A DNA stretch of 35,967 nt from Paracoccus sp. (in: a-proteobacteria) (GTDB taxonomy: Bacteria; Pseudomonadota; Alphaproteobacteria; Rhodobacterales; Rhodobacteraceae), in the NCBI GenBank assembly GCA_030538705.1, contig JAUNTL010000022.1, forward strand, positions 1 to 35,967, given 5' to 3'. The notes beneath the pieces are model-generated. The model had not been told where the DNA came from. It did not search any database and was given only the letters and a program-made list of their open reading frames with translations. Both the position numbers and the translations under genes were made by a program. Shown here in pieces: positions 5,130-11,599 of this stretch (positions within the stretch are counted from its first letter, which is position 1; every line of letters begins with the position of its first letter).

Positions 5130-5299
5130 CATCTTGCCCGTCCATCCGGCCCGCACAGGGCAGCAAGGCCAAGAGTTTCACCGATGCCAGCCGTCATGAG
5201 TATCCGCGCCCTGCTTCCTCATCGGAACGGTAGCAACAGAAAAGCCCAAGTCCAAGCAGGTTATTCCACCTGTCCGGGCTGCCGCCTGTGCTGCGGTGA

Positions 5300-5328
5300 T
5301 TGACGCGGCGGGGCCTTGGGGCCTAACT
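5300..5328 (+). promoter_or_regulatory. Candidate promoter of glnE (possibly leaderless)
   Basis: TTGACG at 5300-5305 is followed by a 17-base spacer and CTAACT at 5323-5328 (or TAACTC with an 18-base spacer). The -10 match is weak. If used, transcription would start at or next to the A of the glnE ATG (5335), giving a leaderless message. No ribosome-binding site precedes that ATG. Confidence 0.3.
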
Positions 5329-5334
5329 CGGCCC

Positions 5335-8199
5335 ATGGATTTCGCTGCCCGTATCACCCGCACCCCGATCGCCCATGACACGGCCCGCGCCAGCGAGGCC
5401 CGCGCCCTGTTCGCCGGCACAGATGCGCCTGTCGCCGATCTGATCGCCGCGACCGCCGGTTGCAGCCCCTATCTGTGGTCGCTGATGCAGAAAGAGGCCG
5501 AGTGGCTGGTCGACGCATTCGCGACCGCCGATGACGGGCTGATCGCGCGCGAGACGGCGGGGTTCGACGCGCTTGACGGTGATGCCCTTGGCCCCGCGCT
5601 CCGGCAGGTCAAGCGCCGTGTGGCCCTGCTGGCCGGGCTGGCTGATCTGGGCGGCGTCTGGCGGCTGGAACAGGTGACCGGCGCGCTCAGCGATCTGGCC
5701 GATCGCGCCACTGATCTGGCCCTGCGCGCCCATCTGCGCACCGAGACCGCGCGCGGCAAACTGCCGGCAAGCGATGCCGATGCCGGCGGGATCTTTGTCA
5801 TGGCCATGGGCAAGATGGGCGCGGGAGAGCTGAACTACAGCTCGGATATCGACCTGATCGTTCTTTATGATGATGGCGCCTATGATCCCGCCGATCAGCA
5901 CGAGGCCCGCGCGGGCCTGATCCGCGTGACGCGCAAGATGGCGGCGACGCTGTCGGATAATACCGAGCATGGATATGTCTTTCGCACCGATCTGCGGCTG
6001 CGCCCCGATGCGGCGGTGACGCCGGTCTGCATCTCGGCCTCGGTGGCGCTTGCCTATTACGAGGCCGAGGGCCGGACATGGGAACGCGCCGCCTATATCA
6101 AGGCGCGGCCCTGCGCGGGAAATCTGGCGGCGGGGCAGCGCTTTCTGGCCGATCTGCGCCCGTTTGTGTGGCGCCGCCATCTGGATTTCGCGGCGATTCA
6201 GGATGCCCATGACATGCGGCTGCGCATCCGTGATCACAAGGGCCTGCACGGCCGGCTGGAGATCGCCGGCCATAATATGAAACTGGGACAGGGCGGCATC
6301 CGCGAGATCGAGTTCTTTACCCAGACCCGCCAGCTTATCGCCGGGGGGCGCGACGAGGCGCTGCGCGAGCGCGGCACCGTGCCGGCCCTTGCGGCATTGG
6401 CGAAAAAGGGCTGGGTGCCGCAGGCCATCGCCGATGAACTGAGCGATCACTATCGCCGGCACCGCGAGATCGAACATCGTATCCAGATGGTCAACGACGC
6501 CCAGACCCATGACCTGCCGCGCGATCCCGAGGGGTTGCTGAACATCGCGCGGATGGAGGGCTGCGATGATCTGGACGGCTGGACCGCGCGGCTGCGCGCC
6601 CGGCTGGAGCGGGTCGAGGCGCTGACCGATGCGTTCTTCGCGCCCGCGGATGACGCCCCTTTGCCTGAGTTGTCCGATGAGGCCCGTGCCATCATCGCCC
6701 GCTGGGACGGCTATGCGGCGCTGCGTTCGGCGCGCGCGCGCCAGATCTTCCGGCGCATCCAGCCGGACCTGCTGGCGCGGATGACCCGCGCCGCCCATCC
6801 GGTCGAGGCGCTGACACGCTTTGACGGCTTCCTTCAGCGCCTGCCGGCAGGCGTTCAGATCTTTTCCCTGTTCGAGGCCAACCCCTCGCTGATCGACCTC
6901 ATCGTCGATATCTGCGCGACCGCACCGGGTCTTGCCGCCTATCTCGGCCGCCATCCCGAAGTGCTGGATGCGGTGGTCGGCGGGACGTTCTTTGCCCCAT
7001 GGCCGGGAGAGGCAGGGCTGAAGCAGGATCTGACCGCGCGGCTGGATGCGCGCATGCAGGCGCGTGACGGCGGCTATGAGCGCGCCCTGGACGAGGCGCG
7101 CAGATGGGCGCATGAATGGCAGTTCCGCGTCGGGGTGCATCATCTGCGCGGGCTGTCCGATGCGGCACAGGTCGGGCGCGAATATGCCGATATCGCGGAT
7201 AGCGCGATTGCCGCCCTGTTGCCGCTGGTGGTCGATGAGCTGGCCGTTCGCCACGGGCCACCGCCCGGTCGCGGGGCGGTGGTGATGGGTATGGGTTCGC
7301 TGGGCGCGCGGCGGCTGAACGCGGCCTCGGACCTTGATCTGATCGTGATCTATGATGCGGCGGGGGTCGAGGAATCGCAGGGCCGCAAGCCATTGGCGCC
7401 GCGTGCATGGTATGCGCGGCTGACGCAGGCGTTGATAACCGCGCTGTCGGCCCAGACCTCGGCGGGGCGGCTTTACGAGGTCGACATGCGGCTGCGCCCC
7501 TCGGGGCGGCAGGGGCCGGTCGCGACGTCGGTCCAGTCGTTTCGCGACTATCAGCTGACCGAGGCCTGGACATGGGAGCATCTGGCCCTGACGCGTGCCC
7601 GTGTGATTGCCGCCTGCGGGGCGGATGCGGCAATTCTGCCCGACGAGATCGAGGCGCTGCGGGTCGAGGTTCTGGCCACGCGGGGCGGCGACGCGCGGGT
7701 GATGCCGGATCTGGCCGATATGCGCGCCCGGATCTTTGCCGCGAAACCGTCTGACGGGGCATTGGAGGCCAAGATCGGTCGCGGACGGTTGCAGGATATC
7801 GAACTGCTTGGCCAGAGCTTTGCGCTGCGCGCCGCCGATCCCGCCCGCACGCCCGAGGCGCAGTTGCGCAGCGGTGCGCGTCATGGCCTGCTGCCGCGCG
7901 CTGAGGCCGAGGCGCTGATGGCGGCGCAGCGGTTCTTGTGGCGTTTGCAGGCGGCAGGACGGCTGATCAGCGAAAAACCCCTGAGCATGGATAATCTGGG
8001 CGCCGGCGGGCAGGATTTTCTGCTGCGCGAGACCGGCTGTGACAGTCTGGACGCGCTTGGCACATCTCTGGCCGGGATGATCGCCTCGGCCGGGCGGATC
8101 GTTGATGACGGGCTGGCCGTGGCCGAGGGGGGCCGCGCGGCGGAGGGCGATGTCGTGGTGGAGGGGGATATGCCCGGGGACCGCGCCGCGGACGGCTGA
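5335..8199 (+). CDS. glnE: Glutamine synthetase adenylyltransferase / adenylyl-removing enzyme
   Basis: A 954-residue bifunctional enzyme that adds AMP to, and removes it from, glutamine synthetase, so coupling its activity to nitrogen status through PII. Two nucleotidyltransferase domains are visible. The N-terminal (adenylyl-removing) one has GKMGAGELNYSSDIDL at residues 159-174. The C-terminal (adenylyltransferase) one has GSLGARRLNAASDLDL around residues 654-669. Each is followed by a helical GlnD-PII-uridylylase-like region, for example RIRDHKG and GQGGIREIEFFTQ after the first and GRGRLQDIELLGQ after the second. The length is normal for the family. A GTG at 5296 would add 13 residues, but relatives begin near MDFAARITR, so the ATG at 5335 is chosen despite lacking a clear ribosome site. 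It stands alone, convergent with the glycosyltransferase gene. Confidence 0.95.
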   Translation: MDFAARITRTPIAHDTARASEARALFAGTDAPVADLIAATAGCSPYLWSLMQKEAEWLVDAFATADDGLIARETAGFDALDGDALGPALRQVKRRVALLAGLADLGGVWRLEQVTGALSDLADRATDLALRAHLRTETARGKLPASDADAGGIFVMAMGKMGAGELNYSSDIDLIVLYDDGAYDPADQHEARAGLIRVTRKMAATLSDNTEHGYVFRTDLRLRPDAAVTPVCISASVALAYYEAEGRTWERAAYIKARPCAGNLAAGQRFLADLRPFVWRRHLDFAAIQDAHDMRLRIRDHKGLHGRLEIAGHNMKLGQGGIREIEFFTQTRQLIAGGRDEALRERGTVPALAALAKKGWVPQAIADELSDHYRRHREIEHRIQMVNDAQTHDLPRDPEGLLNIARMEGCDDLDGWTARLRARLERVEALTDAFFAPADDAPLPELSDEARAIIARWDGYAALRSARARQIFRRIQPDLLARMTRAAHPVEALTRFDGFLQRLPAGVQIFSLFEANPSLIDLIVDICATAPGLAAYLGRHPEVLDAVVGGTFFAPWPGEAGLKQDLTARLDARMQARDGGYERALDEARRWAHEWQFRVGVHHLRGLSDAAQVGREYADIADSAIAALLPLVVDELAVRHGPPPGRGAVVMGMGSLGARRLNAASDLDLIVIYDAAGVEESQGRKPLAPRAWYARLTQALITALSAQTSAGRLYEVDMRLRPSGRQGPVATSVQSFRDYQLTEAWTWEHLALTRARVIAACGADAAILPDEIEALRVEVLATRGGDARVMPDLADMRARIFAAKPSDGALEAKIGRGRLQDIELLGQSFALRAADPARTPEAQLRSGARHGLLPRAEAEALMAAQRFLWRLQAAGRLISEKPLSMDNLGAGGQDFLLRETGCDSLDALGTSLAGMIASAGRIVDDGLAVAEGGRAAEGDVVVEGDMPGDRAADG

Positions 8200-8277
8200 G
8201 CGGCATGTCATCGCGCCGCCCGGCCCGATCGGTGCGGCCCCCCGTGGCCATGTTGCATTGCGTGATCGTGCATCGGC

Positions 8278-10353
8278 TTATCCGGCAGCACTGACAGGCG
8301 GCCGCGCCACCGCCGGCCGGATCACGGGGCAACCGCCTGCGGGCATTATGTTCCCGGCGTCGCCGGGGGCGGCCGGCCCGTCTTCGCCGCCCTCCGTCTC
8401 GCTTTCATCGAAAAGGCCATGGCTGGTCTTGTCCCAATAAAACGGGTTGCGCAGAATTTCATAGACGGCCTTCCACCCTGCAAGGCAGCCAAGCGGGAAA
8501 TAGAAATGCATCAACGGCACCCAGGGCCGCAGGTGACGGTGTTTGGCGTCGCGCACGGCCCACAGCCCGATCACCATGCCGATCAGTTCCGAGACAATGA
8601 ACAGTGTGAACAATGCCGGGATCGCCACGCCGCCCCAGTTCTGGCTGAGCGGATGGTGCAGGATATGGGGCAGGCCAAGCGCCAGCAGCCAAAAGCTCCA
8701 TAACAGCGGGGCCAGCAGATATTGCGAGATCGTGCCGACGAACTGCACCTGAAAGGCGATGAAACGTCGCGCGCCCAGATCGCGCCACAGCGCCAGCGGA
8801 TCACGCATATGGACCCCCCAGGTCATCGCATAGCCCTTGAGCCAGCGCGAACGTTGCCGCACCCAGGGCAGAACGCGGCAGTTTGCCTCTTCGTCGGTGG
8901 TTGTTGCGATCACCTCTGTGCGCCAGCCGCGCCGCGCCAGCCGGACGCCGAGATCGGCATCCTCGGTCACGTTCCAGGCATCCCAGCCGCCCAGATCCTC
9001 CAGTATCTCCCGGCGAAAGAACAGCGTCGTCCCCCCCAGAGGCACGACCAGACCCAGACGCGCGACACCGGGCAGCATGGCGCGGAACCAGGACGCGTAT
9101 TCGATGGTAAAACAGCGCGCCAGCCAGTTGCTGCGCGGGTTGAAATAGTCAAGCTGCCCTTGCAGGCAGGCGACATCAGATGCGGCCGCCGCAAATCCGC
9201 GCGCGACCCGGTGCAACTGGTCAGGATCGGGCCGGTCCTCGGCATCCCAGATCCCGACGATTTCGCCCCGGCAGAAGTTCAGCGCATAGTTCAGCGCGCG
9301 CGGCTTGGTCTGAACCCGGCCGGGCGGCACGATGACGGTGCGGATCCAGCGGGGCAGGGTGAGATCGCGCAGCGCCTCAAGCGTGACGGTATCGCCCGCC
9401 TCGGCCACCAGCAGGATATCGGTCAGCTCGCGCGGGTAATCCAGCCGCTCAAGCCGCGCGACCAGCCTGCCGGCGATGTCGCTTTCGCGCAGCAGCGGCA
9501 CCATGACCGAGATGAGCGGCAGCGGTCCCTTGTGCTGGGGTGGTGATCGCAGCCCGGCGGCGATCAGCCGGGCCTCGGCCTGTGCCTCGGTCCGGGCGCG
9601 CAATGCGGCGGCAAAGGCCATGATCCGCAAACCGGCGCAGGCCAGCAGCGTCAGCGCGGCCCATGCCGTCAGCATCCCCACCAACACCGCCGGCGCAAGG
9701 ACCAGCCCGACAAGAACAGCCGCGATCAGCGCGCCCGCAATGCGGGCGATCCGGGTCTCGCTGCGGGTGCGGCAGCTTTCTGCGGGGGCGACGCTGGCTT
9801 CGGCCGCGCGCGTCAGCGCGGTTGAACGCCGCGCCATCACCGCTTCGTGGATATGGCTCTCGCGGGCCAGCAGCATCCGCAGTGGTCCGAAATCGGCGGG
9901 CAGGATCTTGCGCAGCCGGCCGAATGATTCGGGTCGTGCGCAGGCGATAAAGGTGACACCGCCGACACGTCGCCATGGCAGAAAGCCGTGCTTGAGGCAC
10001 AGCCCCGCGCCGACCCGGTCAATCAGCCGCGAATCAGGGGGGAGGGCGACCGGATCAACGGCAGAGGTCCGCCATTGCCGCGTCAGGGCATGGATCAGCG
10101 CCTCTTCGCTGACCCAGTCATGGGCGAGCAGGATCTGACCCAGCGGCACATTCTCGCGCCGGCGGATGACGGTTGCGCGGAAAAGCTGGCTTTCGGTGAT
10201 GGCGCCATCTTCCAGCAGGATCCGGCCCAGCGGGCGCAGATCGCGCGGCGCGAGGGTCGCGGCACCGGATGGCGGCGCGCCCTTGCCAGCAGCGGGCGCG
10301 GTCTCGGGCGGCGCCGGGGGGCGTAACTGGTAGGCAGCAGCTTGGCTGGACAT
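8278..10353 (-). CDS. Membrane glycosyltransferase (GT2) with N-terminal MshEN-like domain
   Basis: A 691-residue fusion protein. Residues 1-38 are a Pro/Ala-rich disordered tail. Residues about 40-90 match the MshEN/GspE-N pattern (RPLGRILLEDGAITESQL ... VPLGQILLAHDWVSEEAL), a fold that binds cyclic di-GMP in MshE-like proteins. Two membrane helices lie at about 205-250. A processive GT2 catalytic domain spans about 278-510, with the nucleotide-sugar motifs DAED (370-373), TEDAD (463-467) and QRSRW (500-504, the QxxRW motif of cellulose/hyaluronan-type synthases). Three or four more helices follow (about 530-630), then a conserved RNPFYWDKTSHG. This is close in idea to E. coli NfrB, where the MshEN domain is C-terminal. 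AGGG precedes the ATG. It lies 79 bases after carA, with a TTAA-N7-TTAA box between them. The sugar and product are unknown. Confidence 0.9.
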   Translation of the reverse strand: MSSQAAAYQLRPPAPPETAPAAGKGAPPSGAATLAPRDLRPLGRILLEDGAITESQLFRATVIRRRENVPLGQILLAHDWVSEEALIHALTRQWRTSAVDPVALPPDSRLIDRVGAGLCLKHGFLPWRRVGGVTFIACARPESFGRLRKILPADFGPLRMLLARESHIHEAVMARRSTALTRAAEASVAPAESCRTRSETRIARIAGALIAAVLVGLVLAPAVLVGMLTAWAALTLLACAGLRIMAFAAALRARTEAQAEARLIAAGLRSPPQHKGPLPLISVMVPLLRESDIAGRLVARLERLDYPRELTDILLVAEAGDTVTLEALRDLTLPRWIRTVIVPPGRVQTKPRALNYALNFCRGEIVGIWDAEDRPDPDQLHRVARGFAAAASDVACLQGQLDYFNPRSNWLARCFTIEYASWFRAMLPGVARLGLVVPLGGTTLFFRREILEDLGGWDAWNVTEDADLGVRLARRGWRTEVIATTTDEEANCRVLPWVRQRSRWLKGYAMTWGVHMRDPLALWRDLGARRFIAFQVQFVGTISQYLLAPLLWSFWLLALGLPHILHHPLSQNWGGVAIPALFTLFIVSELIGMVIGLWAVRDAKHRHLRPWVPLMHFYFPLGCLAGWKAVYEILRNPFYWDKTSHGLFDESETEGGEDGPAAPGDAGNIMPAGGCPVIRPAVARPPVSAAG

Positions 10354-10395
10354 GGCGAATCCCTGTCGGTTTCGCCATGCCTGACATGCAAGCCC

Positions 10396-10410
10396 TTAAA
10401 TTTCCGTTAA
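10396..10410 (-). promoter_or_regulatory. CtrA-type box upstream of the glycosyltransferase
   Basis: TTAA at 10396-10399 and TTAA at 10407-10410 are separated by exactly seven bases, matching the full CtrA consensus TTAA-N7-TTAA. It is 43 bases upstream of the glycosyltransferase ATG, a position suitable for the -35 region of a CtrA-activated promoter. It lies in the gap between carA and this gene, which suggests the glycosyltransferase is transcribed separately from carA. Confidence 0.5.
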
Positions 10411-10432
10411 GCCGTGCGCCTGAATGCCGCGC

Positions 10433-11599
10433 TCAGCCTGCGGCGGCGCGGCGGGCCTGCATTGCCTCGGCAAAACGGGTGAACAGATAGGCCGAATCCT
10501 GCGGGCCGGGGCTGGCCTCGGGGTGATATTGCACCGAAAACACCGGCCGCCCCTCGACCGCAAGGCCACAGTTCGAGCCGTCAAACAGGCTGACATGAGT
10601 TTCGCGCACGCCCTCGGGCAGGGTCTGGGCATCGACCGCAAAACCATGGTTCATCGACGTGATTTCGACCTTGCCGCTGTCGATGTCGCGCACCGGGTGG
10701 TTGGCGCCGTGATGGCCGTGGCCCATCTTGACCGTCCGGGCGCCAAGCGCCAGCGCCAGCATCTGATGACCAAGGCATATGCCAAAGATCGGCAGGTCAC
10801 GTTCCAGCAGCGCGCGGATCATCGGCACCGCATATTCGCCGGTCGCCGCAGGATCACCGGGGCCATTCGACAGGAACACCCCCTCGGGATCATGGGCCAG
10901 CACCTCCTCGGCCGTCGCCGTCGCCGGCAGAACGGTCACATCCGCACCCGAGGCCACCAGCGAGCGCAGGATGTTGCGCTTGGCGCCGTAATCCAGCGCG
11001 ACCACACGAAAGGGCCGGTCGCTGGCCGGGCCGCCGAAAACGCCGGGCCAATCCCAAAGACCTTCTTCCCAGCGATAGCTTTGCCGGGTCGAAACCTCGC
11101 GCGCCAGATCCAGCCCGACCAGCCCCCGCCAGGCGCGCGCGCGCGCGACCATCGCCGCGATATCGAACTCGCCCGAGGGGTCATGCGCCAGCACGACATG
11201 CGGGCTGCCCTGCTGACGGATTGCACGGGTCAGGCGGCGGGTGTCGATCCCGCCGATACCGATGCGGCCACGCTTTTCCATCCAGTCTTGCAGATCGGCG
11301 GTGGCGCGCCAGTTCGACGGCTCGGTCGGGTCCCATTTGACCACGATGCCCGAGGCGACGGGATCGGGCGCTTCGTCATCCTGTGCGGTGATGCCGGTAT
11401 TGCCGATATGGGGAAAGGTAAAGGTGACGATCTGGCTGGCATAGCTGGGATCCGTCATGATCTCCTGATAACCGGTCATGGCGGTGTTGAACACCAGCTC
11501 GGCCACGACATCGCCGGTGGCACCGAAACCCCGGCCGGTAAAGATCGTCCCGTCCGCAAGGGCAAGGCAGGCGGTCGGTTTCGCGTCATGCGCGGTCAT
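10433..11599 (-). CDS. carA: Carbamoyl-phosphate synthase small subunit
   Basis: A 388-residue glutaminase subunit that hydrolyses glutamine and channels ammonia to CarB for carbamoyl phosphate, the precursor of arginine and pyrimidines. The N-terminal CPSase small-chain domain (about 8-150) contains TGYQEIMTDPSY and FPHIGNTG. The C-terminal class I glutamine amidotransferase domain (about 197-380) shows the nucleophile C275 in GICLGHQ and the H359/E361 pair in QYHPEASPGP. AGGAG precedes the ATG at 11599. carB is not in the window, which is common in alphaproteobacteria. The gene is divergent from yqeY with a well-formed promoter. The assignment is firm. Confidence 0.97.
   Translation of the reverse strand: MTAHDAKPTACLALADGTIFTGRGFGATGDVVAELVFNTAMTGYQEIMTDPSYASQIVTFTFPHIGNTGITAQDDEAPDPVASGIVVKWDPTEPSNWRATADLQDWMEKRGRIGIGGIDTRRLTRAIRQQGSPHVVLAHDPSGEFDIAAMVARARAWRGLVGLDLAREVSTRQSYRWEEGLWDWPGVFGGPASDRPFRVVALDYGAKRNILRSLVASGADVTVLPATATAEEVLAHDPEGVFLSNGPGDPAATGEYAVPMIRALLERDLPIFGICLGHQMLALALGARTVKMGHGHHGANHPVRDIDSGKVEITSMNHGFAVDAQTLPEGVRETHVSLFDGSNCGLAVEGRPVFSVQYHPEASPGPQDSAYLFTRFAEAMQARRAAAG

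Follow-up and report, generated by a model that had tools for sequence, protein, structure and literature searches.

An orphan MshEN-glycosyltransferase downstream of carA as a candidate c-di-GMP receptor of Rhodobacteraceae

Members of the family Rhodobacteraceae make c-di-GMP, though the receptors that would read this signal are little described in the literature that we found. A gene in a Paracoccus genome, in which an MshEN domain precedes a glycosyltransferase, raises the question of whether one such receptor has been overlooked. The original prediction for this gene was a stand-alone, c-di-GMP-switched exopolysaccharide synthase of Rhodobacteraceae; here, we ask how much of this holds for the protein itself, and how much for its family. 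Throughout, "the window" means the whole stretch of DNA that was analysed (35,967 nucleotides).

Our best explanation is that the synthase is an orphan, inner-membrane, processive-type GT2 enzyme that would carry an NfrB-kind c-di-GMP switch in its N-terminal MshEN, a reading to which domain and motif comparisons lend a probability of about 0.6. We regard it as a candidate for the missing c-di-GMP receptor of the family.

Architecture of the fusion protein and its surroundings

The open reading frame was found exactly where it had been predicted (Table 1), on the minus strand, which the prediction left unstated. It is the only match in a search of its own genome (3.4 Mb, 86.6% complete), and its closest relatives are Paracoccus records.

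Table 1. Features of the fusion gene and its neighbours, in positions of the window
Feature	Residues	Positions	Strand	Basis or remark
MshEN-glycosyltransferase fusion gene		8278..10353	minus	691 aa, ATG start
MshEN motif I (PLGRILLEDGAITESQLFRATVIR)	41-64	10162..10233	minus	NF053729 match and mapping
MshEN motif II (PLGQILLAHDWVSEEALIHALTRQ)	70-93	10075..10146	minus	NF053729 match and mapping
MshEN C-terminal subdomain	98-172	9838..10062	minus	Pfam PF05157
Conserved linker AExxVxxxESCR	184-195	9769..9804	minus	Family alignments A1, A2
Hydrophobic stretch	200-253	9595..9756	minus	Hydropathy
GT2 catalytic domain	281-506	8836..9513	minus	PF13641, motif conservation
C-terminal hydrophobic stretches	546-565 and 573-602	8548..8718	minus	Hydropathy
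WDKTxH motif, common to NfrB	640-645	8419..8436	minus	Motif comparison
carA, carbamoyl-phosphate synthase small chain, directly upstream		10433..11599	minus	Pfam
glnE, convergent neighbour (context only)		5296..8199	plus	Pfam

The twin MshEN motif that had been proposed at the N-terminus is borne out by a match to the whole of the NCBIfam model NF053729 (c-di-GMP motif, MshE-related), in which the two 24-residue motifs (53 residues in all, 41-93) score 47.0 bits (E 1.6e-12), above the curated cut-off of 38 bits. The Pfam MshEN model PF05157 follows (34 bits; cut-off 23.1), and the AExxVxxxESCR linker, whose A184, S193, and R195 are invariant in both family alignments, leads from MshEN to the first membrane segment. 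Judging from hydropathy, residues 200-253 are probably two membrane helices.

The catalytic domain is matched by GT2 models (best E 2e-27) and contains DAED (370-373), TED (463-465), and QxxRW (500-504). By its motifs and hydropathy, the protein has all the marks of a processive-type GT2 enzyme, namely a DxD-type motif, TED, QxxRW, and membrane segments. Among solved structures, the enzyme part comes nearest to cellulose synthases and the first part to PilF, PilB, and MshE; EpsU, PgaC, and CelA are among the best named models, all of them far under their cut-offs.

The end of carA lies 79 bases upstream of the fusion gene. Among 39 further ORFs of the window, some of which lie antisense to a real gene, a Pfam scan found no outer-membrane, NfrA-like, export, or polysaccharide families, in agreement with the prediction that the window holds no export partner; the gene is flanked directly by carA and glnE. 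Promoter-like sites (none at 8000-10700) and terminator-like sites (one there, inside carA) were no more numerous than in shuffled sequences and gave no proof of an operon.

The c-di-GMP site in the window protein and in its relatives

Mapping of the window protein onto the numbering of Vibrio cholerae MshE shows that the contacts Leu10, Gly11, Gly18, Leu25, Leu39, Gly40, Leu54, Leu58, and Gln61 are kept. Pro41 takes the place of Arg9, Thr61 of Leu29, Arg64 of Gln32, Pro70 of Arg38, and Asp79 of Gly47, and both motif-opening arginines are thus absent. In MshE, the R9A change lowers binding by 83% and Q32A by 61% (PMC4624772). The view that motif I is dead, given the missing Arg9 and Gln32, was nevertheless withdrawn because motif I of Escherichia coli NfrB (PLGQILLENQVITEEQLDTALRNR) has Pro and Arg at the same positions as the window family, and NfrB binds c-di-GMP with a Kd of 1.0 uM (PMC8669469). 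Similarly, PilF GSPII-C binds although Pro opens one of its three motifs, and PilF GSPII-B, in which Lys and Leu replace both arginines, binds at 6 nM (PMC11731258). The contact pattern of the family is therefore NfrB-like, and relatives were compared using a 14-position contact score that tolerates Pro41 and Arg64 because NfrB carries them.

On this score, the window protein keeps 11 of 14 positions, with T61, P70, and D79 deviating; judged by the strict MshE motif, Pro41 and Arg64 are further deviations. A lack of the nucleotide-contacting Arg, Leu, and Gly residues had been named in advance as a finding that would tell against the prediction, and it was found in part, with the Arg9, Leu29, Arg38, and Gly47 positions changed. 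Because motif II is altered (Arg38 to Pro, Gly47 to Asp), binding of c-di-GMP by the window protein itself is doubtful and may be weakened. Two comparisons bear on this: XpsE, changed at Arg38 (R38G) and at seven other places, does not bind c-di-GMP (PMC5013675), and in engineered PilF GSPII-A constructs, binding was abolished when the position of Arg38 was returned to Ser (PMC12002112). The residues at both R38 and G47 are non-canonical in 13 of 135 Rhodobacteraceae rows, including that of the window, and the nearest relatives (L031 and L032) retain both. For many relatives, the motifs make binding likely.

The 135 aligned rows comprise 78 from the Paracoccus group and 57 from other Rhodobacteraceae. 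Within motif II, the canonical residue is present in the Paracoccus group in 58 rows at R38, 67 at G47, 76 at L54, 76 at L58, and 75 at Q61; the corresponding counts for the other Rhodobacteraceae are 29, 45, 38, 42, and 40. The contact score is at least 12 in 100 of the 135 rows and below 9 in 16. The contact columns are less variable than residues 41-93 overall, clearly so in other Rhodobacteraceae and weakly in Paracoccus: the proportion of random column sets with equally low variability was 0.0046 (11 columns), 0.0034 (with the Arg9 column added), and 0.0009 (all 14) in the former, and 0.036, 0.065, and 0.032, respectively, in the latter. The complete processive-type GT2 with QxxRW that had been predicted is mirrored throughout the family, with DAED kept in 135/135 rows, TED in 134/135, and QxxRW in 135/135.

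Although GT2 models match 43 of 43 Rhodobacteraceae members and Pfam MshEN matches 41, NF053729 does so in only 23 (at a limit of E <= 1e-9, not the curated cut-off), and the ligand site is therefore dispensable in many members. On a tree of 82 rows built from enzyme columns only (the window, the 57 other Rhodobacteraceae, 20 of the 77 further Paracoccus-group rows, and 4 outgroup rows), the rows scoring below 9 require no fewer than eight state changes, with at least five demanded by well-supported branches; this is a quick tree, in which 25 of 79 inner branches are unresolved and two outgroup branches are long. Taken with the kept catalytic motifs, these changes indicate that the ligand site was lost several times while the enzyme was retained. 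With the catalytic motifs near-invariant, such repeated erosion would reveal the way in which a second-messenger switch is taken apart.

Motif scores did not correlate with the number of GGDEF domains (Spearman -0.13, p 0.29) in 65 of 67 genomes, those labelled G012 and G021 having no full-length frame. Nor were they significantly associated with the presence of PilZ (Mann-Whitney p 0.90; Fisher p 0.11, 0.18, and 0.54 for scores of <=8, <=9, and <=11). Dropping two genomes with PilZ in a cellulose-synthase-like frame gave p values of 0.04 and 0.07, a post hoc result that is not counted.

Distribution, fixed place, and known relatives

The survey of this fusion that had been suggested for Rhodobacteraceae proved positive: at E <= 1e-60, the synthase is present in 266 of 295 genomes (265 of 294 genera) in a family draw of about one genome per genus, and in 25/25 genomes of its own genus. 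In this genus, the G015 copy matches from residue 89 onward only, the G021 copy is in two pieces on two contigs, and among the copies L021 (G015), L025 (G021), L010 (G012), and L058, one in-frame TAG was seen. At the same limit, 37 of 385 genomes in a class draw match, five of which are the own genome and its family; in a phylum draw, 87 of 398 match at E <= 1e-50, and some of the matches outside Rhodobacteraceae span the enzyme part only.

The place of the gene is equally constant. In 118 of 122 Rhodobacteraceae loci, carA lies directly upstream on the same strand, with a median gap of about 90 bases before the frame's first ATG; for genera other than Paracoccus, the count is 40 of 42 (exceptions, L154 and L158). 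Neither carA nor yqeY was found near homologs outside the family (0/18 loci, L181-L198, within the stretch examined).

The bacterial cellulose synthase BcsA works with BcsB, and like the window protein, it has a GT2 core with the same catalytic motifs. Of 66 Rhodobacteraceae genomes carrying the synthase, only 6 yielded a BcsB gene, and the own genome, at its 86.6% completeness, yielded none; in Rhodobacteraceae, the gene stands as an orphan with neither a BcsB partner nor its own operon. BcsA is controlled via a PilZ domain (PMC8461298), which the window protein lacks.

NfrB is the second obvious comparison. It too combines GT2 with MshEN, and it shares the Pro...Arg form of motif I and the WDKTxH motif after the membrane part. 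As had been predicted, however, its MshEN is at the other end of the protein (NF053729 at 489-540, C-terminal; PMC8669469). The GT domains are distant (22% where they align), the window protein reaches 43.7 bits against the NfrB model NF008411 (cut-off 1170), and NfrB is encoded with nfrA and ybcH, whereas no NfrA-like family occurs among the window ORFs scanned. By these sequence comparisons, the window protein is neither NfrB nor a cellulose synthase. MshE and the PilF GSPII domains likewise have twin 24-residue motifs with a 5-residue spacer (PMC5013675 and alignments), but these proteins are pilus or secretion ATPases and their contact residues differ.

The closest architecture is that of Sfz2, from the xag-like cassette of stalk-forming Zetaproteobacteria, in which an N-terminal T2SSE_N/MshEN-type domain (IPR007831) precedes GT2 with QxxRW and TED (PMC8250860). 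The MshEN-first order is therefore not a novelty, and the existence of MshEN-glycosyltransferase fusions had already been pointed out in 2016 (PMC5013675). What is new is that the synthase is an orphan across the family, that its locus is fixed, that PilZ is scarce beside it, and that the switch was lost repeatedly.

In the phylum draw, one genus with genomes of about 2-3 Mb carries full-length homologs of the window protein (L207-L212 and L214); it is probably zetaproteobacterial, a placement that for L207 comes from its gene cluster. By eye, the N-terminus of these homologs holds a tandem pair of MshEN_N units, both of them possible c-di-GMP sites, and NF053729 confirmed the two units in L207 (2 stretches, 110.2 bits). 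L207 is 33% identical to the window protein over 644 residues, and its cluster reads BcsB, GT, a 499-aa protein, GH113, a 287-aa protein, and CotH, the 499- and 287-aa proteins having no family. This fits the sfz cluster as described in PMC8250860 in order and in the first three gene sizes, with differing lengths of the last genes; L207 is a probable Sfz2. The MshEN-first order and full-length homology thus link the window protein to the Sfz2/XagB type, with L207 rather than XagB itself as the protein compared. The BcsB-like and hydrolase genes of that type are absent at the window, and where L207 has two c-di-GMP-motif units in a BcsB cluster, the Rhodobacteraceae gene encodes a single unit and follows carA on its own. 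For the N-terminal part of Sfz2, the authors of PMC8250860 proposed an EpsE-like nature and perhaps a role in translocation, a reading that they themselves called questionable.

In an alphaproteobacterial locus (L213), too, the homolog has a BcsB gene next to it. On the Geobacillus plasmid CP128455.1 (L201; typed as conjugative), a relative of the GT core is annotated beside BcsB-like and sugar nucleotidyltransferase genes; the plasmid neighbours of GT-core homologs in Frigoribacterium and Mycobacterium were not telling, and three further plasmid homologs had neighbours that carry no annotation.

Signalling context and competing explanations

GGDEF domains are present in all 67 Rhodobacteraceae genomes tested for them, the own genome having two. 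A PilZ match was obtained in 13 of these 67, the own genome not being among them. In the family draw, 71 of 295 genomes have PilZ and 224 have no match, whereas MshEN is found in 247 (once in 231, twice in 16). No PilZ match was obtained in 197 of the 266 synthase-bearing genomes, a count in which nine genomes were assigned by elimination. Of the two receptor domain types searched (MshEN and PilZ), the MshEN of the synthase is usually the sole one present.

In the mechanism that we favour, c-di-GMP would bind between the two 24-residue motifs of a cytosolic N-terminal MshEN. The binding signal would pass via the MshEN C-subdomain and the AExxVxxxESCR linker, the likely coupling element, to the membrane-bound catalytic core, which may then extend a polysaccharide through its own channel. 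Gating by c-di-GMP is favoured because of the NF053729 match, the NfrB-like motif I, the motif II kept in the family, the constrained contact columns, and the kept catalytic motifs, together with GGDEF in 67/67 genomes and MshEN in 247/295 versus PilZ in 71/295. It is weakened because the window protein deviates at 3/14 positions, in the light of the mutant data for MshE, XpsE, and PilF GSPII-A, and because NF053729 matches only 23/43 members, scores do not follow GGDEF number, no export partner was identified, and cyclase loss raises biofilm in Paracoccus denitrificans. In sum, the stand-alone nature of the predicted synthase, its wide presence in the family, and NfrB-like contacts at the family level stand, and the contacts of the window protein itself are weakened.

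Several other explanations should be kept in mind. In the window species, MshEN could be a relic that folds and holds the enzyme together without binding c-di-GMP, leaving the synthase constitutive or controlled by expression or a protein partner. The loss of both motif arginines and Gly47, the 13 of 135 rows without canonical R38 and G47, and the recurrence of such losses (at least eight changes for rows scoring below 9 on the 82-row tree) all suit it; we nonetheless consider it unlikely, though a serious contender, as the window protein retains 11/14 scored positions (including Gln61, Gly11, Gly40, and five of the six leucines), PilF GSPII-B binds at 6 nM although neither of its motifs opens with an arginine (PMC11731258), and the nearest relatives keep R38 and G47. 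The enzyme might also make a short envelope glycan or glycolipid instead of an exopolysaccharide, which would explain why export genes are missing and why the distribution is near-core. With no operon partner, BcsB in 6/66 carriers and none in the own genome, a fixed place by carA, and a presence in 266/295 genomes that is unusual for an optional biofilm polymer, this product has some appeal. It is rather improbable when set against TED and QxxRW (134/135 and 135/135), which are signatures of processive GT2 enzymes, the cellulose synthases as best solved relatives, the homologs that adjoin BcsB genes elsewhere, and best named models that include EpsU, PgaC, and CelA, though far under their cut-offs.

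The direction of the presumed switch could be the reverse of what is expected, with c-di-GMP inhibiting the synthase, or the product could be anti-adhesive, so that the signal lowers attachment. P. denitrificans without both of its diguanylate cyclases shows a rise, not a fall, in biofilm (PMC5588039), as either version would have it. This overproduction is accompanied by more of the adhesin BapA (PMC5588039), so the synthase need not be involved, and c-di-GMP activates NfrB in the model of its authors (PMC8669469); we consider both versions very unlikely.

Returning to an NfrB-kind switch, a broader proposal may be put forward tentatively, with the odds leaning against it: that most Rhodobacteraceae, having cyclases and mostly no PilZ, use the orphan MshEN-synthase as their main dedicated c-di-GMP effector, and that the synthase forms a natural series in which the switch is kept in some genera and independently lost in others with the enzyme intact. 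No published account of a Rhodobacteraceae MshEN synthase was found in the open-licence literature. For P. denitrificans, the sole receptor candidate named in section 9 of PMC5588039 is a catalytically inactive EAL protein. The pxm gene of this species is not the same gene as the synthase, pxm being Pden_0842, a phosphoglycosyltransferase. A single-copy synthase with an NfrB-like site, found in about nine of ten genera sampled, P. denitrificans DSM 413 included, is a testable receptor candidate, and the DSM 413 ortholog (L053) keeps 14/14 scored positions and reaches 51.1 bits with NF053729.
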